Shown here: piece after piece, positions 6,519 to 51,272 of the stretch
How the letters are laid out: each line of letters begins with the position of its first letter
Position numbering within the stretch: position 1 is the stretch's first letter
Source: Tepidiforma sp.
Lineage (GTDB): Bacteria > Chloroflexota > Dehalococcoidia > Tepidiformales > Tepidiformaceae
Assembly (NCBI RefSeq): GCF_026003995.1
Contig: NZ_BPIG01000002.1
Span: forward strand, 806,001 to 870,000
Direction: 5' to 3'
DNA: 64,000 bases
Position numbers and translations under genes: made by a program
The notes under the pieces: model-generated
What the model was told of the DNA's origin: nothing
The model's input: only the letters and a program-made list of their open reading frames with translations
The model's database searches: none

Positions 6519-7946
6519 TCACGAATCCGCGGCCGCCCCTGCCGGTGCCGGCTCGGACCAGAACCTGCCGTTCTCCCGCGCGTTCCGCCCCGGCCGCCGC
6601 GGCCCCTCCGCCAGGATGCGCACCACTTCCGACCACGCGCTCGCGAACCCCAGCGGCGCACCCAGCCGCGCCTCCGCCTCCTCCACCGTCATCGAGTCGA
6701 GGAACTTCTCGCCGAAGAAGTCGAGGCTCGGCCGCGGCAGGATGTAGCAGTCCGGCGGCCCGTCCCGGCGCACTTGCTCCACATAATCCGCGCCGCAGAC
6801 CAGCCCGCTCACGTTCACCCGCTCGCCGAACACCCGGTTCGTCACTCCCCGCACCTCGACCTCCGCCCCCGTCAGCTCCGAAAACTCCCGCGCGATGCCG
6901 GCCAGCATCGGCGCCATCAGCCGCGCCGTCCCCACCACCGCCCGCCGCCCGGCCACGCCCGCCGGCACGCCCCGCTCCCGCAGCCGGCGCCGGGTCCGCG
7001 CCCAGTCGTCCAGCAGCTTCCGCACCATCCCGATGCCGTTTTCGTACTGCGGGAACCCGTCGTACGCCCGCGCCGGCGGCACCGGCAGCCCCGCCGTCAC
7101 GTAGTACTCGTCGCTGCACTGCACGATCGTCGCCCCGTGCCGCCGCCGGAACTCCCGCTGGAACGGCCGGATCAGCTCGATGACCTCCCGCGCGTACGCG
7201 GGCGTCGGCCGCTCCAGCGGGATGCCGTCCCGCTCCAGCGCCCATTCTTCCAGCCGCGGGCTCGCGCCCACCGGCACGACGCTGATGGTCAGCACCGTCG
7301 GGTACAGCGCGCCGAGGTCGGCAATCGACCGCTGCAGGTGTTCGCCGTCGTTCACCCCCGGGCAGAGCACGATTTGCGTGTGCGCCTGGATGCCCATCTC
7401 GCCCAGCCGCCGGAGCTGCGCGATGATGTCCGGCGCCTCCGGGTTCGCCAGCATCCGCCGCCGCAGCGCCAGCTCCGTCGCGTGCACCGAGACGTTCAGC
7501 GGGCTCAGCCGCTGCTCCTCCAGCCGCGCCCAGTCCTCCTCCGTCAGGTTCGTCAGCGTCACGAAGTTCCCGTGCAGGAACGAGAGCCGGTAGTCGTCGT
7601 CCTTCACGTACAGGGTCTTCCGCATCCCCTTCGGCAGCCCCTTCAGGAAGCAGAAGAAACAGTTGTTATTACAGAGGATGACGTCGTCCCACGTGGCCCG
7701 CTCGAACTCCCACCCGATGTCCTCGTCGATCGCCTTTTCGAACACGATCAGGTCGTCGAGCCCGTTCGCCTTCCGGACGAGCACTTCGACCTCCGGTTCG
7801 GCAGCGTAGAACTGGACGTCGACCACGTCGCGCGGCGCCCGCCCGTTGACCCGCACTACGGCGTCGCCCGGCTCGAGCCCGGCGAGGTCCGCCAGCGAGC
7901 CCGGCCGCACGCCGCTGATGACGCCCGGCGCCGGTTCGTTCCGCAT
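6519..7946 (-). CDS. PDZ/radical SAM protein with DUF512 (TIGR03279-like)
   Basis: 475 residues. An N-terminal PDZ-like segment ([20 protein letters not shown]) is followed by a radical SAM-like cysteine motif C-NNN-C-FF-C near residue 95 and a C-terminal DUF512 region. The family is widespread in Firmicutes, Cyanobacteria and Chloroflexota, and its reaction is not established. The start is set at the ATG at 7946; the reading frame extends upstream into ispH, but that part lacks similarity to the family. It sits 25 bases after ispH and is probably the last gene of the rluB-cmk-plsC-ispH transcript. Confidence 0.9.
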
Positions 7947-7971
7947 GCGTTCGATTATGGCACGGGGGCGC

Positions 7972-8916
7972 TCAGCGCCCGGCGCCCGCTGCTCCCACCA
8001 GCTCCCGGATCCGGGCCTCCACCGCATCCACCGAGAAATCCGGCGTCGAAGCCCCGGCCGTCAGCCCGATGCGCTCGACCCCGTCGAACCAGCCCGCCTC
8101 CAGCTCCTCGGGCCCTTCGATGTGGTACGCGCGCGTCCCCTGCTCCTCCGCCACTTCCCGCAGGTGCCGCGTGTTCGCGCTTTTCTTCCCGCCGACGACG
8201 ATCATCACGTCGACCTGCTTCGCCAGCGCTGCGGCCGCCTCTTGCTGGCCCGTCGTGGCGTGGCAGAGCGTGTTCACCACGTGCAGCTCGAAGTTGTAAT
8301 CCCGCCGCAGCAGCATCAGGTTCGCCACGAACTGGGCGAAGTCCTCCATCTTGTGGGTCGTCTGCGCCATCACCCCGATTTTGTTCGGGAACCCGCCCGG
8401 GAACTCCTCGACCAGCCGGCGCAGGCTGGCGAGGTCCGATTGCGGCACGACCGTCGCGTTCGGCGAACCGTCCGGGCCGTTCGTCCAGCCGAGGATGCCG
8501 CGTACTTCCTTGTGCCCCGGGTCGCCGAAAATCAGCACGTGCCAGCCTTCGCGCGCGAACTTCTGCCCGTACCGCTGCGCCCGCGTGACGATCGGGCAGG
8601 TCGTATCGATGATCTCCAGTCCGCTCGCCGCCAGCTCCTTCACCACCCGCTCGGCGACTCCGTGGGCGGTAATCGCCACCCGGCCCTGCTTCACGCGCTC
8701 CGCGGTCGCTTTGCCGATGTCCCCATCCACCTCGTCCGGGCCCGGCAGCTGGACCACCCCGCTCTGCTCGAGGGACCGCACCACGTGCGGGTTGTGGACG
8801 ATTTCGCCGACGCTGAAGACCGGCCGCTCAGGCGACGCCTCGGCTTCCATGATCTGCACGGCGCGGCGCACGCCCATGCAGAACCCCATGTCACTCGCGC
8901 GGATGATCTGGACCAT
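7972..8916 (-). CDS. ispH: 4-hydroxy-3-methylbut-2-enyl diphosphate reductase
   Basis: Last enzyme of the methylerythritol-phosphate pathway, an iron-sulfur enzyme making IPP and DMAPP. 314 residues from the ATG at 8916 (MVQIIRAS). Conserved cysteines are visible in GFCMGVRRAV, in DTTCPIV and in NTLCHATTGQQEA; the VVGGKKSANTRHL and GLTAGASTPD motifs confirm the family. It overlaps the end of plsC by 26 bases, consistent with translational coupling. The ispD and ispF genes of the same pathway are found at 53-54.6 kb. Confidence 0.96.
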   Translation of the reverse strand: MVQIIRASDMGFCMGVRRAVQIMEAEASPERPVFSVGEIVHNPHVVRSLEQSGVVQLPGPDEVDGDIGKATAERVKQGRVAITAHGVAERVVKELAASGLEIIDTTCPIVTRAQRYGQKFAREGWHVLIFGDPGHKEVRGILGWTNGPDGSPNATVVPQSDLASLRRLVEEFPGGFPNKIGVMAQTTHKMEDFAQFVANLMLLRRDYNFELHVVNTLCHATTGQQEAAAALAKQVDVMIVVGGKKSANTRHLREVAEEQGTRAYHIEGPEELEAGWFDGVERIGLTAGASTPDFSVDAVEARIRELVGAAGAGR

Positions 8917-9610
8917 CGTGCTCCTGCGGCGCACCGCCGCCACTCCCAGTATAGGGAGCCACGTACTCCGGCGGTAAGAGCGCCTTGATGGCCTCGAAAA
9001 TCCGCTCCGTCAGGGCGCTCACCTGCTCCTCCGTCGGCCGCTTCACCGCCTCGACCCGGATCGGCTCGCCAATCGTCACCGTGAACCGCGGCCGCCGCAG
9101 CACGACCAGCGGATTCCGGAACCGCTCCGTCCCGGTCACCGCGCAGGGGAGCACCGGCACCCCGGTCCGCAGCGCGATGAGCGCCGTCCCCGGGTGCGGC
9201 TTGCCGAGGTAGCCCGTGCGCGACCGCGTCCCCTCCGGGAACATCCCCAGCACGCCCCCGTGGCGCAAAATCCGCTCCGCGTTCAGCATCGCCCCGAGGT
9301 CGGCTTCGAACCGCCGCACCGGGAACGCGCCCCACAGCCGCGGGATCACCCCGAACGGGTAGCGGAACAGCTCGATCTTCGCCATCCACCGGATGCGCCG
9401 CTTCGCCACTCCCGCCCCCACGATCGGCGGGTCCGCATTGTTCAGGTGGTTCGAGACCACGATCAGCCCGCCTTCGAGCGGCACGTGCTCCCGGCCCCGC
9501 ACCTCCCAGCGCGTCACCAGCCAGAGCGCCCCGCGCAGGGCGTACGTGCACCCCCAGTAGAACGCCGGCACGAACCACTCCCACCGCGGCCGCGGCAGCT
9601 TCAGTTGCAT
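8891..9610 (-). CDS. plsC: 1-acyl-sn-glycerol-3-phosphate acyltransferase (PlsC family)
   Basis: Membrane-associated acyltransferase forming phosphatidic acid. 239 residues from the ATG at 9610, which overlaps the end of cmk by 10 bases. The catalytic NHxxxxD motif is present as NHLNNADPP (near residue 47), followed by the FPEGTRSRTG motif that binds the glycerol phosphate. A hydrophobic N-terminal segment (FVPAFYWGCTYALRGALWLV) would anchor it to the membrane. The order rluB-cmk-plsC-ispH is a recurrent cluster in bacteria. Confidence 0.93.
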   Translation of the reverse strand: MQLKLPRPRWEWFVPAFYWGCTYALRGALWLVTRWEVRGREHVPLEGGLIVVSNHLNNADPPIVGAGVAKRRIRWMAKIELFRYPFGVIPRLWGAFPVRRFEADLGAMLNAERILRHGGVLGMFPEGTRSRTGYLGKPHPGTALIALRTGVPVLPCAVTGTERFRNPLVVLRRPRFTVTIGEPIRVEAVKRPTEEQVSALTERIFEAIKALLPPEYVAPYTGSGGGAPQEHDGPDHPRE

Positions 9611-30983: not shown

Positions 30984-31616
30984 ATGCCCTTCCGCCGCAA
31001 GCCCGCATCTGCCGGCCCGCGCTTCGCCGCCGACTGGCTCATCGTCGGCCTCGGCAACCCGGGTGAAGAGTACGCCCGCACGCGGCATAACGTTGGGTTC
31101 TGGGTCGTCAACGCCCTCGCGAAGCGCGCCGGCGCGCAGCCGAAAGCCGTCGGCAGCCTCATGCACATCGGCGTCGGCTCGCTCCAGGGCCAGCGCGTCG
31201 CCCTCGTCAAACCGAAAACCTTCATGAACGTCAGCGGCAAAGCCGTCGCCCAGGCCCTCCAGTGGACCGGCTGCGGCCTCGCCCGCACCATCATCGCCTA
31301 CGACGACCTCGACCTGCCCCCCGGCCAGCTCCGCATCCGCGCCGGCGGCGGCCACGGCGGCCACAACGGCCTCAAGAGCATCGCCCAGCACGCCGGGCTC
31401 GATTTCATCCGCGTCCGCATCGGCATCGGCCGCCCTACCGTCGGCGACGAACCCTCCTGGGACCCCGACGTCGTCGCCGACTGGGTGCTCAGCCCCCCCG
31501 CGCCGGCCGACCGCGAACTGCTCGAGGCCGCCGTCCAGCGCGCCGCCGACGCCATCGAGACCATCATCTCCGCCGGCGTCGAAGCCGCCGCTGCCGCCTT
31601 CAATCGCAAGGCGTAA
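30984..31616 (+). CDS. pth: Peptidyl-tRNA hydrolase
   Basis: Releases tRNA from peptidyl-tRNA that drops off ribosomes. 210 residues, with a basic 17-residue N-terminal extension. Motifs: IVGLGNPGEEYARTRHNVGF with the catalytic His, LVKPKTFMNVSG, AYDDLDLPPGQLRIR, and GGGHGGHNGLKSI. The C-terminal tail (EAAAAAFNRKA) is normal for the family. The start codon lies at the expected transcription start. Confidence 0.96.
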   Translation: MPFRRKPASAGPRFAADWLIVGLGNPGEEYARTRHNVGFWVVNALAKRAGAQPKAVGSLMHIGVGSLQGQRVALVKPKTFMNVSGKAVAQALQWTGCGLARTIIAYDDLDLPPGQLRIRAGGGHGGHNGLKSIAQHAGLDFIRVRIGIGRPTVGDEPSWDPDVVADWVLSPPAPADRELLEAAVQRAADAIETIISAGVEAAAAAFNRKA

Positions 31617-31758
31617 GAAGCCCGCAAGAGCGGCTTCAGCGCCGCCGAACGCGTCACGATTTGTCGCTGAACTGTCGCATGCTGCCTGCGCAAACCCGCG
31701 CTGATACCGGGTAAAATTCCGGGAAAGGTTCGGCGACATTCGACCGCGGAAGCGAGGC

Positions 31759-33123
31759 ATGTACCGCGAAGAAGACTACCGCGCTATCGACGCGCACCTC
31801 GGGTTCTTCCCTGGCTGCGCCATCCGGCCACCGCTTCGTATGGACACGACCTGCTCGCCCGGCGGCACCGGCCGCGTCTCCCCGTACGGCTGCGACGTCA
31901 TCTACGGCGACCTCCTTCCCTCGCCATCGCCCGAGGACCCGGAGGAGACCGCGCTCCGCAAGGGCCTCCGCGTCGCCGTGGCGCAGGCGCTCGCCGCCCT
32001 CGATTCCCGCGAGCGCCAGGTCCTTCGTCTCCGCTTCGGCTTCGCGGGCGAACCGCAGACGCTCGAACAGATCGGCGCCGTCTTCGGCCTCACGCGCGAA
32101 CGCATCCGCCAAATCGAGGCGAAAGCGCTGAAAAAGCTCCAGTCGCCCCGGTTCATGCCCTTCCTCGAGCCGTGGCGCCCGGGCGGCCCCGCGCGCCCGG
32201 CCGCGAAGCCGGCAGCGCCCGCCGTGCTCCGCCGGGTGGGCGCACCGGCACCCCGGGATGGGTCCGCCGACCGCCGCCACGTCGGCCCCGCGAAGACGAA
32301 CCGGGAAACGGACCGCCGCGCCGCTCCGGCGCCGCCCCTGGCGAACCGTCCGCCTGCCAGTGCCGAGCGGCCACCGGCGGCCCCGGCGCCGGCCGACCCC
32401 TCCAGCCCGGCCCCGGCGACCGCCGAGGACGCCATCTACGACGCCATCGTTCACGTCTTCTTCCCGCCCTCCGGGCCGTCGGACGCGGAATCCGCTGCCT
32501 CCTCCAGCGTCCCGGCCGTGACCGGTACGAGTGACGCGACCGAGCGCCTCCTCGCGATGCTCGAACCCGCCGAACGCGCCGCGCTCGAACACCTCCACGG
32601 CTTCCGCGCCGCGCTCGCCCCGGCCGCCATCGAACGGCAGCTCGGCATCCCGCAAGCGCGCCTCACCGACCTCGACCGCTGGTTCACCCGCGAACTCCGC
32701 CGTCACCGCGCCGCGCCCGGGACGTACGACCCCGCCCCTCCGCCGCCCTCCGCCCCCGAAGAGCCCGCCGAAACCGAGGATCCCGGCAGCCGTCTCATCC
32801 TGTTCCCGGCAGTCGCCCCGCAGGACCCCCTCGCGATGGCCCTCGAGGGCTTCCGCGCCCGCGGCTACGACATCGTCGACAACCGCCCCCGGGGCGGCGC
32901 CCTCTGGGTCCACGACCTCCATATGAAGCTCGCGCAGGAGATGGAGGATCTTTCGCGCCGCGGCATCCGGTTCCGCTTCACGGAGCACAAACGCGCCGGC
33001 ACCTGGGGCTGGTATCTCGAAGAGGCACCCGCCCCGGCCGCGCAGCGCCCGCCCCGCCAATTAGCCCTGCCTTCCCCGTCCCGGAAGCCGCGCAAGGCGC
33101 GCAAATACCGCGTCCCGTCCTAG
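31759..33123 (+). CDS. Sigma-region-4 protein with long disordered linker and C-terminal GGALWV-type domain
   Basis: 454 residues with an unusual layout. Residues 72-130 are a clear sigma-70 region 4: ALDSRERQVLRLRFGF, LEQIGAVFGLTRERIRQIEAKALKKLQ, i.e. a -35-binding helix-turn-helix. There is no region 2 or 3, so it cannot melt a promoter by itself. A Pro/Ala-rich linker follows (140-230), then a second helical segment that looks like another HTH (LEPAERAALEHLHGFRAALAP, IERQLGIPQARLTDLDRWF), another linker, and a C-terminal domain with MALEGFRARGYDIVDNRPRGG, ALWVHD and FTEHKRAGTWGWYLE. That last domain resembles the GGALWV...WYL module I recall at the ends of some helicases and nucleases. The tail is Lys/Arg-rich. 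Function unknown. Confidence 0.75.
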   Translation: MYREEDYRAIDAHLGFFPGCAIRPPLRMDTTCSPGGTGRVSPYGCDVIYGDLLPSPSPEDPEETALRKGLRVAVAQALAALDSRERQVLRLRFGFAGEPQTLEQIGAVFGLTRERIRQIEAKALKKLQSPRFMPFLEPWRPGGPARPAAKPAAPAVLRRVGAPAPRDGSADRRHVGPAKTNRETDRRAAPAPPLANRPPASAERPPAAPAPADPSSPAPATAEDAIYDAIVHVFFPPSGPSDAESAASSSVPAVTGTSDATERLLAMLEPAERAALEHLHGFRAALAPAAIERQLGIPQARLTDLDRWFTRELRRHRAAPGTYDPAPPPPSAPEEPAETEDPGSRLILFPAVAPQDPLAMALEGFRARGYDIVDNRPRGGALWVHDLHMKLAQEMEDLSRRGIRFRFTEHKRAGTWGWYLEEAPAPAAQRPPRQLALPSPSRKPRKARKYRVPS

Positions 33124-33134
33124 ACTCATTCCAG

Positions 33135-34265
33135 ATGAGCCCGACCGCTGCCGACATCGAACGCTACCGGCGCAACCTCCGCGACGAGGTCGACGGCGCC
33201 GCCCTCTACCGCTACCTTGCCGCCGCTGAGAAAGACCCGAACCTGCGCGACGTCTTCCTCCGCCTCGCCGAGAGCGAAGACCGCCACCGCGCCCTTTGGG
33301 AAGCGAAGCTCCGAGAAGCCGGCGCTGAGGTCCCGGACTACCGCCCAAGCTTCCGCACTCGCTTCCTCGGCTGGCTCGCCCGCCGCTTCGGCACCGCCTC
33401 CGTCAGCCCCATCGTCACCCGCATGGAGATGTCGGCCTACACGATGTACGACGACCAGCCGGAGGCCATCGCCGCCGACCTCCCCCGCGACGAGCGCTCC
33501 CACGCCCGCCTCTTCCGCGAACTCGCTCGATCGACCCGCGGCCGGCCGGTCGAGGTCGACATCGCCCGGCTCGAAGGCCGCCACCGCGCCGGCACCGGCA
33601 ACGCCCTCCGCGCCGCCGTCCTCGGCGCCAACGACGGCCTCGTCTCGAATCTCTCGCTCGTCATGGGCGTCGCCGGCGCGAACCCCGGCCAGAACGTCGT
33701 CGTCCTCGCCGGCATCGCAGGCCTCCTCGCCGGCTCCCTCTCGATGGCTCTCGGCGAATGGATCAGCGTTCGCAGTTCGGCTGAGGCCTTCGCCCGCCAG
33801 CTCGAAATCGAGCGCGATGAGCTCGCCCTGATGCCCGATGAAGAGCTCGAGGAGCTCGTCCTCATCTACCGCGCGAAGGGCCTCGGCGAAGAGGAAGCCC
33901 GCGCCACCGCGCAGCGCATCATCGCCAACCGCGAAACCGCCCTCGATACCCTCGCCCGCGAAGAGCTCGGCATGTCCGAAGAAGAGGCGGGCAACCCGTG
34001 GGTCGCCGCCATCACCTCGTTCCTCACCTTCAGCGTTGGCGCCATCATCCCCGTCATCCCGTGGCTCTTCCTCGCCGGCATCGCCGGGGTGGCCGCCAGC
34101 GCAGCCGCCAGCGCCCTCGGCCTCTTCGCCGTCGGCGCCGCCATCACCCTCTACACCGGCCGGGGCATCCTCTTCTCGGGGTTCCGCATGCTCACCTTCG
34201 GCCTCGCGGCCTCGGCCATCACCTTCGGCATCGGCCGCCTCATCGGCGTCAGCACCGGCATTTGA
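33135..34265 (+). CDS. Ferritin-like/VIT1 fusion iron or manganese transporter
   Basis: 376 residues. The N-terminal 150 residues form a ferritin-like bundle with ExxH pairs (LAESEDRHRALW and PRDERSHARLF) as in erythrin-VIT1 proteins; the remainder is a VIT1/CCC1 domain: VLGANDGLVSNLSLVMGVAGA, LLAGSLSMALGEWISV, a charged cytosolic helical insertion (FARQLEIERDELALMPDEELEELVL), and three membrane helices to the end. Moves Fe2+ or Mn2+ across the membrane; the ferritin-like part likely senses or collects the metal. TAGACT at 33121 sits eight bases before the ATG. Confidence 0.9.
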   Translation: MSPTAADIERYRRNLRDEVDGAALYRYLAAAEKDPNLRDVFLRLAESEDRHRALWEAKLREAGAEVPDYRPSFRTRFLGWLARRFGTASVSPIVTRMEMSAYTMYDDQPEAIAADLPRDERSHARLFRELARSTRGRPVEVDIARLEGRHRAGTGNALRAAVLGANDGLVSNLSLVMGVAGANPGQNVVVLAGIAGLLAGSLSMALGEWISVRSSAEAFARQLEIERDELALMPDEELEELVLIYRAKGLGEEEARATAQRIIANRETALDTLAREELGMSEEEAGNPWVAAITSFLTFSVGAIIPVIPWLFLAGIAGVAASAAASALGLFAVGAAITLYTGRGILFSGFRMLTFGLAASAITFGIGRLIGVSTGI

Positions 34266-34274
34266 CGCCCGCGG

Positions 34275-34775
34275 TCAATCGAGCGCGAGGTCGAGCGCCA
34301 GCCGGCGGTCCGTCGTCCGGATCGCCACCAGCCGGTACGGCAGTTCCCCCGCCGCCTCGTCGAGCCGCTCCTGCAGCGGCGGTTCGATGAGCGCCGCCAC
34401 CGCCTCCGGCGCCGTCAGGCCGCCCAGCGTCGCCCGCGCCACCCGCAGCACGAGCCGCCCATCCGCCACTTCCGGGTCGAGGTACACCGAGGCGCGCGTC
34501 CCAACGCCCCACGCGCCGACGCCGAACGTCACCCCGACGAGCCCCTCCTGCAGCACCTCGACATCCACCGCCGGCCGCTCGCCGACGCCCGGGATGGCCG
34601 GGAGCTCCCGCGCGATGATCGCCGCCAGCGCCCGCTCGTCGAACGTCACCGTGATGTTGCCGCCGCCGGCGACCGCCTCCGTCCGCGCGTCGAAATCGGG
34701 GTCCACCGTGAACCACAGCACGACCGCGACGGCCCCGGCGAGCATCCCCAGCGCGAACGCGAACAGTCCCCGCAT
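34275..34775 (-). CDS. Membrane-anchored hypothetical protein
   Basis: 166 residues from the ATG at 34775. One N-terminal membrane helix (LFAFALGMLAGAVAVVLWF) followed by an extracytoplasmic domain with ITVTFDERALAAIIARELP and repeated beta-alpha patterns. The alternating pattern resembles small lipid-binding SMP/LEA-like beta-rich domains, but I cannot name a family. It converges with the transporter gene, nine bases apart. Confidence 0.65.
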   Translation of the reverse strand: MRGLFAFALGMLAGAVAVVLWFTVDPDFDARTEAVAGGGNITVTFDERALAAIIARELPAIPGVGERPAVDVEVLQEGLVGVTFGVGAWGVGTRASVYLDPEVADGRLVLRVARATLGGLTAPEAVAALIEPPLQERLDEAAGELPYRLVAIRTTDRRLALDLALD

Positions 34776-37008: not shown

Positions 37009-39486
37009 ATGGCCGATCGGTTTGACAAATTCACAGAACGGGCGCGGCGCGTCCTGACGCTCGCCCAGGAAGAAGCCCACCGCTTCAACCACAACTACAT
37101 CGGCACCGAACACATCCTCCTGGGACTCGTCCGCGAAGGCGACGGCGTCGCAGCTAAAGTCCTCGCCAACCTCGGCGTCGAGCTCAACAAGGTCCGCTCG
37201 GCCGTCGAATTCATCATCGGCCGCGGCGACCGCACCGTCCTCGGCGAAATCGGGCTCACCCCGCGCGCCAAGAAGGTCATCGAGCTCGCCGTCGATGAGG
37301 CGCGCCGCCTCAACCACAGCTACATCGGCACCGAGCACCTGCTCCTCGGCCTCGTCCGCGAGGGCGAAGGCATCGCCGCCGGCGTCCTCGAAAGCCTCGG
37401 CGTCAACCTCGAGCGCGTGCGCGCCGAAACGACCCGCATCCTCAGCCAGAGCGCGCCCCAGGCCGCGACCTCCGGCGCAGGTGCCCGCCAGGCGAGCCGC
37501 ACTCCCACCGTCGACCAGCTCGGCATCGACCTGACCGCCGCCGCCCGCAACGGTCAGCTCGACCCTGTCATCGGCCGCTCCAACGAACTCGAGCGCGTCG
37601 TCCAGATCCTCTCCCGCCGGACCAAGAACAACCCGGTGCTCATCGGCGAGCCGGGCGTCGGCAAGACCGCCATCGCCGAGCTGCTCGCCCAGCGGATCGT
37701 CTCCGGCGATGTCCCCGAGACGCTCCAGAACAAGCGCCTCCTCACCCTCGATATCGGCTCTCTCGTCGCCGGCACCAAGTACCGCGGCGAATTCGAAGAG
37801 CGCCTCAAGAAGGTCATCGAGGAGATCAAGGCCGCCGGCAACTGCATCCTCTTCATTGATGAGCTCCACATGCTCGTCGGGGCCGGCGCCGCCGAAGGCG
37901 CCGTCGATGCCGCCAACATCCTCAAGCCGTCACTCGCACGCGGCGAGCTCCAGTGCATCGGCGCCACCACCCTTGACGAGTACCGGAAGCACATCGAGCG
38001 CGACGCCGCCCTCGAGCGCCGCTTCCAGCCGGTCATGGTCGAAGAGCCGACCGTCGAAGAAGCTATCGAAATTCTCAAGGGCATCCGCCCGCGCTACGAA
38101 GAGCACCACAAGCTCAAGATCAGCGACGCTGCCCTCGTGGCCGCCGCCGAGCTCTCGGCCCGCTACGTCAGCGACCGCTACCTGCCCGATAAGGCGATCG
38201 ACCTCATCGATGAGGCCGCCAGCCGCGTCCGCATCCGCCGCGCGGCCACCCCGCCTTCCCTTAAGGAAGCGATGAAGGGCCTCGAAAGCCTCCGCCGCGA
38301 AAAGGAACAGGCGATCGCCGCCCAGCAGTACGAATACGCCGCTGAGCTCCGCGACCGCGAGGTCAAGCTCCAGGACAAAATCCGCGAGATGGGCGAGTGG
38401 GAGGAGGGCGAGGCCGGTATCGCGACCCCCGTCGTCACCGAAGAGGACGTCGCCGAGGTCGTCTCGATGTGGACCGGCATCCCCGTCGCCCGCATCGCCA
38501 GCGAAGAAAGCGCACGCCTCCTCCGCATGGAGGAAGCCCTCCGCAGCCGCGTCATCGGCCAGGACGAAGCGATCGAAACCATCGCCCGCGCCGTCCGCCG
38601 GGCCCGCGCCGGCCTCAAGGACCCGCGCCGCCCAATCGGCGTCTTCCTCTTCTGCGGGCCCACTGGCGTCGGCAAGACGGAGCTCGCCCGCGCCCTCGCC
38701 GAGTTCATGTTCGGCTCGCAGGACAACATGATTAAGCTCGACATGAGCGAGTTCAGCGAGAAGCACACCGTCTCGCGGCTCGTCGGCGCGCCCCCCGGCT
38801 ACGTCGGCTACGACGACGGCGGCCAGCTCACGGACACCGTCCGCCGCAAGAGCTACTGCCTCGTCCTCCTCGACGAAATCGAAAAGGCGCACCCCGAAGT
38901 CTTCAACCTGCTCCTCCAGATCTTCGATGAGGGCCGCCTCTCCGATGCCAAGGGCCGGAAGGTCGACTTCCGCAACACCATCATCATCATGACCTCCAAC
39001 GTCGGGTCCGACCTCATCAAGAAAGACAGCGCCCTTGGCTTCGCCACCACGACCGACGAGGTCAAGACCCACGAAGAGCGCTACCAGCGCATGAAGGAGA
39101 AGGTCCTCACCGAGCTGAAGAACGTCTTCAAGCCCGAGTTCCTGAACCGCATCGACAGCACGGTCGTCTTCCGCTCCCTCACCAAGGAAGACATCCGGAA
39201 GATCGTCGACAACGAACTCAAGAAGGTCGAGAAGACGCTCAATCAGAAGGGTGTCCGCCTCGAAGTCACCGAGGCCGGCAAGGACTGGCTCGGCGAGAAG
39301 GGCTACGACGAAGTGTTCGGCGCTCGCCCGCTCCGCCGCGTCATCCAGGACAACATCGAAGACCGCCTCAGCGAGATGCTCCTCGCTGGCGACTTCGGTA
39401 CCGGCGACAGGGTCAAGGTCGACCGCAACCCCGATGCGGACGAACTCACCATCGAAACCGTCCGCGAACCCCAGCCCGTCGGCTAA
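37009..39486 (+). CDS. clpC: ATP-dependent Clp protease ATPase subunit ClpC
   Basis: Hsp100 unfoldase that feeds substrates to ClpP. 825 residues, intact. Two N-terminal Clp repeats (both with [12 protein letters not shown]), AAA domain 1 with Walker [13 protein letters not shown] and Walker [11 protein letters not shown], a UVR-type coiled middle segment ([17 protein letters not shown]), AAA domain 2 with [16 protein letters not shown] and [14 protein letters not shown], and the C-terminal small domain ending PQPVG. It starts 38 bases after rpsA. No ctsR, mcsA or mcsB is adjacent. Its last 719 bases are repeated at 41919-42631. Confidence 0.97.
38768..39486 (+). repeat. Direct repeat copy A (3' end of clpC)
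   Basis: Matches 41919-42631 at well over 90 % identity by eye until the last about 30 codons; the first 60 bases are identical. The two copies bracket the lower-GC cassette. Confidence 0.9.
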
Positions 39487-41838: not shown

Positions 41839-41918
41839 CCCGGTTTCCGCAGCCAACTCGGCGGCCTGTAGCAGGGTGCGGCCGGTGGGCTGGAGGTCGA
41901 GGCGGGTGCAGTGGAGAG
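41833..41918 (-). pseudogene. C-terminal remnant of an unknown gene
   Basis: Minus strand, stop at 41833-41835; the last 28 codons read ALHCTRLDLQPTGRTLL then QAAELAAETGE, a well-formed helical C-terminus. Upstream on that strand the frame runs straight into the clpC fragment at 41918, so only the tail of the gene survives at the junction. Family unknown. Confidence 0.3.
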
Positions 41919-42631
41919 CCGTCTCGCGGCTCGTCGGCGCGCCCCCCGGCTACGTCGGCTACGACGACGGCGGCCAGCTCACCGATACCGTCCGCCGCAA
42001 GAGCTACTGCCTCATCCTCCTCGACGAAATCGAGAAGGCGCACCCCGAAGTCTTCAACCTCCTGCTCCAGATCTTCGACGAGGGCCGCCTCGCCGATGCC
42101 AAGGGGCGGAAGGTCGACTTCCGCAACACCATCATCATCATGACCTCGAACGTCGGGTCCGACCTCATCAAGAAGGACAGCGCGCTCGGCTTCGCCACCA
42201 CGACCGACGAGCTCAAGACCCACGAAGAGCGCTACCAGCGCATGAAAGACAAGGTGCTCGCCGAGCTGAAGAACGTCTTCAAGCCCGAGTTCCTCAACCG
42301 CATCGACAGCACCGTCGTCTTCCGCTCGCTCACCAAGGAAGACATCCGGAAGATCGTCGACAACGAACTCAAGAAGGTCGAACGGACCCTCAACCAGAAG
42401 GGTGTCCGCATGGAAGTCACCGACGCCGGCAAGGACTGGCTCGGCGAAAAGGGCTACGACCCCGTCTTCGGCGCCCGGCCGCTCCGCCGCGTCATCCAGG
42501 ACAACATCGAAGACCGCCTCAGCGAAATGCTCCTCTCCGGGCAGTTCGCCGCCGGCGATACCATCCGCATCGACGCCGAAGACGGCCAGCTCAAGATCGA
42601 GCCGATCCGCGAGCCGCAGCCTGTCGGCTGA
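41919..42631 (+). pseudogene. Truncated second clpC: 3' third only (direct repeat copy B)
   Basis: Encodes about 237 residues equivalent to ClpC residues 588-825: [19 protein letters not shown], Walker B ([15 protein letters not shown]), the sensor region and the D2 small domain ending PQPVG. The Clp N-domain, all of AAA-1 and the Walker A of AAA-2 are absent. The last 30 codons differ from clpC (LSGQFAAGDTIRIDAEDG versus [20 protein letters not shown]), so this is a remnant of a diverged paralogue and not a recent copy. A frame starting at 41876 would add unrelated residues. Unlikely to hydrolyse ATP. Confidence 0.85.
41919..42631 (+). repeat. Direct repeat copy B
   Basis: Partner of 38768-39486; offset 3151 bases. 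Recombination between the copies would delete the three-gene cassette and leave one complete clpC. Confidence 0.85.

Positions 42632-42943: not shown

Positions 42944-51272
<8,329 letters not shown>

Follow-up and report, generated by a model that had tools for sequence, protein, structure and literature searches.

The Locus and Its Neighbors

The window, the whole stretch of 64,000 nucleotides analyzed here, comes from a Chloroflexota bacterium and encodes a protein that has region 4 of a sigma factor and no region 2, which raises the question of what such a protein could do in transcription. The gene is the open reading frame 31759-33123, for which the coordinates and frame given in the original prediction were correct. 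Its product (P0001) joins region 4 to a C-terminal domain (CTD) and is called here the sigma4-CTD protein. The genome, G000, is represented by a 2.84 Mb assembly that is 92% complete.

30984-31616, + strand: pth, peptidyl-tRNA hydrolase, upstream neighbor (Pfam, E 2e-61), likewise upstream in G001-G004
31759-33123, + strand: sigma4-CTD ORF, 454 aa, with relatives that are full-length in G002 and shorter but intact in G003 and G004
33135-34265, + strand: rubrerythrin-VIT1 membrane protein (VIT1), downstream neighbor (Pfam), beginning 11 bp past the sigma4-CTD stop

The start codon is supported by the relatives, which begin with MYRDEDYRAIE in G002 and, from a GTG codon, with VYSDEDYRAID in G001. 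A scan across 31560-33200 detected no promoter or terminator.

When 61 genomes were searched with P0001, 57 matched, mostly over region 4 alone. Region 4 and the CTD were found together in G000-G004, that is, in five of the six genomes of the genus, and in G012 of the same family, giving six known members in all, one of which has a frame change. The remaining genus genome (G005, 72% complete) showed neither the sigma4-CTD gene nor VIT1. All five genus copies are flanked by pth upstream and VIT1 downstream, the latter in the same orientation and at a distance of 11 bp in three genomes and 85-88 bp in two. Of 32 VIT1 matches, 30 loci were fetched with flanks of up to 1.5 kb, some less, and the 25 from other genera contained no sigma4-CTD gene, pth or CTD within these flanks.

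The frame change lies near residue 378 of the G001 copy. Because of it, the frame at 6548-9001 of the G001 locus (L037) runs on into VIT1 as one ORF of 817 codons, which is probably an assembly error and possibly a fusion. In the window itself, rpoB (42944-46782) is open in two frames of 782 and 497 codons, and a comparison of this span and 46813-50748 with G001, G003 and G004 revealed frame changes in rpoB and at the end of rpoC. Since both genes are essential, these changes suggest small indel errors in the G000 assembly. Another feature of the window is a second, partial ClpC at 41876-42631. This C-terminal fragment has a counterpart in G003 and shares 88.7% identity with the ClpC encoded at 37009-39486, over residues 588-825 of the latter.

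A Primary-Type Region 4 without Region 2

The N-terminal part of the protein comprises the following elements.

31768-31800, + strand: N-terminal helix, residues 4-14 (structure model), with the motif EEDYRAI (compare EADYAVI in P0006, the G012 member)
31822-31947, + strand: region 3.2-like segment, residues 22-63 (RPPLRMDT...GDLLPSP), from the alignment with SigA
31948-32151, + strand: sigma region 4 of primary type, residues 64-131 (Pfam PF04545, E 2.2e-19)
32092-32118, + strand: recognition helix TRERIRQIE, residues 112-120, kept in all six members, in one with I changed to V

Residues 72-130 had been described as an excellent region 4, and the Pfam search bore this out: Sigma70_r4 matches residues 77-128 with an E of 2.2e-19 and is the sole family above its cut-off in the protein. 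Of 47 NCBIfam matches, the best 25 concerned MzaA and the C-terminal portions of sigma factors, with no region 2 among them, and all fell far under the full-length cut-offs, save the generic TIGR02937 (51 vs 42.9 bits). In the region-4 search of the whole genome, the sigma4-CTD protein took the top row with 74.3 bits, SigA scoring 74.1. Residues 64-131 are identical to SigA of G000 at 39 of 68 positions, and across the six members this comparison ranges from 34/67 to 57/69 (51-83% identity), P0006 having 57 of 69. The recognition helix of SigA of G000 is identical to TRERIRQIE. In E. coli sigma70, the equivalent residues touch the -35 element. Since all six members keep this helix, a putative -35-binding activator or sigma competitor is the leading class of explanation.

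A full-length structure model had low confidence overall (mean pLDDT 68, pTM 0.35), and only its domains were therefore used. With the full model as query, Foldseek retrieved sigma factors, the best at E 4.4e-5. Taken alone, region 4 superposed on two chains of 8d5v, a SigA region 4-flap chimera, with an rmsd of 0.9-1.1 Å across 71 columns; alignments to sigma factors of more than 100 columns had an rmsd of 5-17 Å. Region 4 of the sigma4-CTD protein is of sigma-factor ancestry.

Ahead of region 4 we found the region 3.2-like segment, which was absent from the original prediction. Its resemblance to region 3.2 of SigA is weak (10 of 32 positions identical). The charge of the segment differs from that of its counterpart, with 7 D/E and 3 K/R in residues 22-63, as compared with 10 D/E and no K/R in SigA of G000. 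The acidic finger is lost in every one of the six members, which have 3-7 D/E together with 3-4 K/R.

The absence of region 2 was confirmed: no region 2 or region 3 family appeared among the Pfam matches, and an in-frame region 2 upstream is ruled out, as the intact pth gene occupies that place and ends at 31616. Pfam searches of G000 yielded 11 region-2 hits (counted at E <= 0.01) and 17 region-4 hits. For all 11 region-2 hits, the next hit in order was a region 4 on the same strand, within about 320 bases; ten of these partners were above cut-off and one was weak (C3:273310, E 0.006). An orphan region 2, with no region 4 nearby, was therefore found in 0 of 11 cases in this 92% complete genome. 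The predicted inability of the protein to bind the -10 element is consistent with the absence of region 2 from the protein and of an orphan region 2 from the genome. Five further region-4 rows of G000 have no adjacent region 2; four of them are above cut-off (C2:466004, C1:162285, C3:51618 and C5:61289) and possibly represent other HTH proteins.

Linkers and a Degenerate Second HTH

Region 4 and the CTD are separated by long Pro/Ala linkers, as had been noticed from the sequence; these are real and diverge fast. Two elements lie between the domains.

32422-32448, + strand: linker motif AEDAIYDAI, residues 222-230, within a model helix at 222-234
32524-32712, + strand: degenerate second region-4-like HTH, residues 256-318 (hhalign, shuffles and model)

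The second HTH, also part of the original prediction, held in part. In the model its helices (258-266, 270-279, 288-295 and 299-318) are spaced like those of region 4 (61-79, 83-93, 102-109 and 113-127). By sequence, however, it is weak. The hhalign comparison gave a P of 4.4e-4 with a probability of only 33.5. In a ranked set of 3003 sequences, made up of the three long copies and 3000 shuffles of the P0001 segment, the copies took ranks 1 (P0005), 10 (P0001) and 21 (P0002), and two shuffles scored nearly as high as the best copy. The alignment did not show the second HTH in the shorter relatives of G003 and G004.

The linker motif had been absent from the original prediction. The pattern [AE]E[DE].[ILFVY]..[AS][IL] occurs in the linkers of all six members and in 0-18 of 5000 shuffles per linker, numbers that are overstated because the pattern was made after inspecting the sequences and because the members are related. 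The segment around it, residues 216-232, is not slow-evolving; its dN/dS was high in four pairs (1.94, 0.74, 0.94 and 0.37, from 11-17 codons each). What makes the motif of interest is its occurrence in the distant P0006.

The C-Terminal Domain and Its Carriers

The rest of the protein is formed by the CTD and a short tail.

32809-33021, + strand: CTD, D.RP.GGALWV...GWYL, residues 351-421, fold H-E-E-H-E-E (PADLOC, alignment and model)
33022-33120, + strand: Pro/Arg/Lys-rich tail, residues 422-454, aligning only with G002

A GGALWV...GWYLE domain had been proposed here and likened to one fused to helicases and nucleases. It proved to be a real domain, conserved in an alignment of 22 sequences and confidently folded, and it does occur on helicases and nucleases. 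AlphaFold, run on the CTD alone (an 84-residue construct), gave a pLDDT of 89-97 per ten-residue block for residues 11-80, with the order helix-strand-strand-helix-strand-strand; the fold model covers the CTD of P0001 only, and the D.R..GG.LW motif is seen in the alignment. No Pfam-A family covered the CTD in P0001 or in the other CTD proteins scanned. Foldseek found no PDB fold below E 0.48; the weak hits include gyrase A and LAGLIDADG homing endonucleases, the strand order being one that we take to be reminiscent of LAGLIDADG. By sequence, there was no PDB match better than E 0.014; the best rows were NADH-quinone oxidoreductase subunit 5 (E 0.014-0.022 with query A1, 0.075-0.13 with A4), and neither these nor the Foldseek hits led to a conclusion. 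A PDB search with the tail of a ZorC from Ramlibacter returned designed barrels and unrelated rows.

The PADLOC models provided the first link to a named family. The last ~60-70 residues of the ZorC models match the CTD of P0001, P0002 and P0006, for P0001 with an E of 5e-5 as a whole protein and 1.6e-5 as the CTD alone. P0003 and P0004, of G003 and G004, showed no ZorC match at E <= 0.1, but their CTDs do align. The Ramlibacter ZorC, which matches the PADLOC model at E 3e-180, has the D.RP.GGALWV motif and was aligned with the CTD.

Searches with CTD alignments picked it up in at least 10 of the 294 class genomes, among them the six carriers of the sigma4-CTD protein, and in at least 11 of 400 genomes of the phylum, the two weakest unconfirmed. 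These are lower bounds because the first-look candidates were only partly scored for many genomes. In the phylum search, L061 and L062 (E 7e-4 and 1e-3) were inspected by eye, which gave no confirmation, and they are not counted as relatives; L063 and L070 are likewise left out of the count. In the class of Litchfieldia at least 7 of 250 genomes matched, one being the seed genome and one weak; in the phylum of Ramlibacter at least 2 of 398 did, one being the seed genome, and both of these matches are ZorC-like (L052 by scan, L144 by eye). A set of genome contigs gave the CTD in 4 of 139 candidate stretches. Plasmids had no match to the CTD of the window and one record matching the CTD of L051, which by eye is of helicase type.

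The proteins that carry the CTD are diverse. It is joined to an SF1 helicase with an MTES_1575 nuclease in L032 and L051 (Pfam) and, by eye, in L142; the proteins of L047 and L056 match PADLOC PDC-S37 and resemble this kind. It is also found on a topoisomerase (L057) and a helicase-PLD protein (L046), both assigned by Pfam and both cut by the locus start, and on DUF4145 (HEPN) proteins in L065, L067 and L069 (Pfam), those of L066 and L068 looking alike. In most of these helicase-nuclease, topoisomerase, helicase-PLD and DUF4145 proteins, the CTD forms the C-terminal end or lies close to it. Nine non-sigma CTD proteins or frames were scanned with Pfam, and region 4 was absent from all of them. 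In L067 (514-2319), the DUF4145-CTD protein is extended by an HNH_repeat-like part (24.9 bits; cut-off 26), and L044 (16-2511, G233) has an 832-codon frame with the CTD in mid-protein and no Pfam match at E <= 0.01. The CTD is a small, confidently folded domain that has no Pfam match and unites at least six kinds of conflict and DNA-processing proteins. ZorC is among its carriers, and passages of PMC11890865 assign the ZorC tail no role.

The Relative in G012 and Mobile Elements

P0006 of G012 is an open frame of 589 codons with an uncertain start. About 160 residues ahead of its region 4 resemble the N-terminus of Eco57I-type methylases (E 0.011 against PADLOC type IIG). When searched for in 288 genomes, this N-terminal part matched in 12, G012 included, with 10 of 13 rows lying in frames of 1027-1313 aa; the matches include the downstream neighbor of P0006 itself (G012:C18:11508-11951). 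On the same strand, P0006 is preceded by an SNF2/helicase-PLD protein and followed by an Eco57I methylase and then RhuM; VIT1 of this genome lies on a different contig. The N-terminal part and the neighbors point to a restriction-type setting as a plausible home of the sigma4-CTD family. From a restriction-type form the genus copies may have descended and settled, a direction that we infer.

A scan of genome contigs with the whole P0001 confirmed 0 of 88 candidate stretches, and scans of viral contigs confirmed 0 of 10 with query A5 and 0 of 8 with P0001. Among plasmids, P0006 gave 178 records, none covering 80% of it, and the 25 listed all lay over the sigma part; likewise, among 30 phage records for P0001, the 20 listed all fell inside residues 64-137. 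Inspection by eye of the called genes near the sigma4-CTD gene, most of them unscanned, recognized no zorA, zorB or zorD, nor was a defense gene recognized, by eye or with Pfam, among the window genes inspected.

Evolutionary Rates

Between G000 and G001, the sigma4-CTD proteins are 66% identical, whereas pth and VIT1 are 97% and DinB is 99% identical; between G000 and G002, the values are 54% for the sigma4-CTD protein, 86% for pth and 93% for VIT1. The dN/dS in G000-G001 was 0.46 for the sigma4-CTD gene, as compared with 0.06-0.12 for pth, VIT1, DinB, ferredoxin and the ORF at 34275. Rows for rpsA (0.29-0.87, at 81-91% identity) were left out, since the values misfit a conserved gene; frame errors are our guess. 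The dS was likewise higher in the sigma4-CTD gene (0.53) than in pth (0.11) and VIT1 (0.22); replacement of the gene by a diverged allele is possible, but ferredoxin also reached 0.49.

Across four pairs, dN/dS was 0.14-0.44 for region 4, 0.27-0.57 for the second HTH, 0.31-0.73 for the CTD (0.73 in G000-G003) and 0.54-0.86 for the first linker. Values above 1 were seen in single short segments, residues 1-21 and 216-232 in G000-G001 and the poorly aligned segment 1-21 in G000-G003. The gene therefore diverges fast, yet its domains are under constraint.

A Model for the Sigma4-CTD Protein and Its Alternatives

The architecture, the kept recognition helix, the absence of region 2 and the acidic finger, and the relatives of the CTD are the observations that an explanation has to accommodate. 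We favor the hypothesis that the sigma4-CTD protein is a non-initiating sigma region 4 mimic carrying a defense-type module, to which we give about an even chance of being right. It would stem from the tail end, regions 3.2 and 4, of a sigma factor of primary type. Linkers that are long and probably disordered tie this part to the CTD, a small alpha/beta domain and presumably an add-on module of phage-defense and DNA-processing enzymes. Through region 4 the protein is predicted to dock on -35 elements, on the tip of the RNA polymerase beta flap, or on both, which we consider somewhat probable. Since region 2 and the acidic finger are absent, the protein should neither open promoters nor prime initiation, and it would instead compete with or modulate SigA; for competition the balance is close to neutral. 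The CTD, the linker motif and the degenerate second HTH may recruit a nucleic-acid or protein partner. A role in defense rather than in housekeeping regulation is a more tentative proposal, and the housekeeping-type genes that adjoin the genus copies speak against it. The DNA-repair link of the original prediction is better described as a link to defense or DNA processing, indicated by the CTD on ZorC, helicase-nucleases, topoisomerase and HEPN proteins and by the restriction-type neighbors.

Several other explanations deserve attention. The protein might be a dedicated regulator of its own operon, binding one or a few -35-like sites and controlling rubrerythrin-VIT1 in iron or oxidative stress, which would agree with VIT1 following in the same direction in all five genus genomes with the gene and with the lack of a recognized defense gene among the window genes inspected. 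We regard this as unlikely, as the gene is missing from the fetched flanks of the 25 VIT1 loci from other genera, the G012 relative stands beside restriction-type genes on a contig separate from VIT1, and fast divergence would be odd beside a 97%-identical neighbor. Sigma-like HTHs in defense proteins may be plain DNA-binding parts, and region 4 could accordingly be a generic HTH of a defense protein that makes no contact with RNA polymerase. The SIGMA-HTH precedents in BrxL, a DndH variant and DUF4145 proteins, as well as the restriction-type context in G012, fit this; but a complete, primary-type region 4 preceded by a region 3.2-like segment, and 51-83% identical to SigA of G000 in six members, makes it slightly less credible still. 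It is also conceivable, though improbable, that the protein is an immune sensor, whose host-like region 4 would be bait for phage proteins gripping region 4 or the flap, the tethered defense-type module acting once the bait is gripped. The fast divergence of a host-like region 4 and the relative inside a restriction-type cluster are compatible with such a sensor.

Decay of a gene retained by accident of position, to which the frame change of the G001 copy and the fast divergence could point, is very improbable. Four of five genus copies are intact, the domains have a dN/dS of 0.14-0.48 in G000-G001, G000-G002 and G003-G004, although the CTD reaches 0.73 in G000-G003, and the frame change in G001 could stem from faulty assembly, as is suggested for rpoB and rpoC in the window assembly. 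In Bacillus subtilis, SigO-RsoA divides sigma activity between two proteins. The presence of region 3.2-4 and the absence of region 2 would suit one half of a split sigma factor of this type, with region 2 supplied in trans by another protein. Every region-2 hit of the genome, however, has a region 4 beside it, in one case a weak one, and the acidity of the finger is gone, so that this explanation has the smallest chance of those considered; at 92% completeness of the assembly, a region 2 gene may have escaped detection. Docking of the non-initiating mimic on promoters or RNA polymerase, if it occurs, would connect transcription initiation to phage defense or DNA processing.

Comparison with Known Systems

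No known family covering the full length was found in Pfam, NCBIfam, PADLOC or PHROGs, in keeping with the original description of an unfamiliar architecture. Searches of the open-access literature, by terms other than the motif, found no description of the architecture and no name for the CTD. Sigma-like HTHs are known from defense proteins; the distinctive feature here is a complete primary-type region 4 that is detached from a sigma factor and joined to the end module of ZorC and helicase-nuclease proteins.

The sigma4-CTD protein shares region 4 and the recognition helix with regions 3.2-4 of SigA/RpoD; it differs in having no regions 1-3.1 and no acidic finger, and in the addition of Pro/Ala linkers, a second HTH and the CTD. 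SigO-RsoA, which appears in a table row of PMC10141391, differs in its partner, as no partner region 2 was found in G000. With ZorC (Zorya type I, EH_Signature), the C-terminal part is common to P0001, P0002 and P0006; EH_Signature was not among the Pfam matches of P0001 at E <= 10, and membership in ZorC was rejected. A passage of PMC11890865 treats ZorCD as part of a nuclease-like effector in Zorya, and the main text of PMC12458937 contains neither 'zorc' nor 'sigma factor'. The SF1-MTES_1575, DUF4145, topoisomerase and helicase-PLD proteins have the same CTD, but an enzyme or HEPN part takes the place of region 4.

At the other end of the protein, the similarity is to MzaA, from the anti-phage system MZA. 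The C-terminal end of the MzaA models matches region 4, and mzaA is called a sigma factor in an excerpt of PMC9523054. Little of the models extends past region 4, which leaves no counterpart of the CTD there, and membership in MzaA was rejected at 83.6 bits against a cut-off of 800, over residues 61-139 only. According to portions of the respective papers, SIGMA-HTHs occur fused to DUF4145 (PMC3710099) and in BrxL (PMC12839542), and a sigma-factor-related HTH occurs in a DndH variant (PMC10853773).

For the proposed role itself, T4 gp33 may serve as a functional analogue, though not as a family member. As described in part of PMC7892883, gp33 clamps the helix of the flap tip in the manner of region 4, represses gp55-dependent transcription when alone and activates it with gp45; it is described there as structurally unrelated to region 4 and as unable to bind DNA on its own. 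This example shows that a protein which clamps the flap and does not initiate can act as a repressor by itself and as an activator when it has a tethered partner (PMC7892883).
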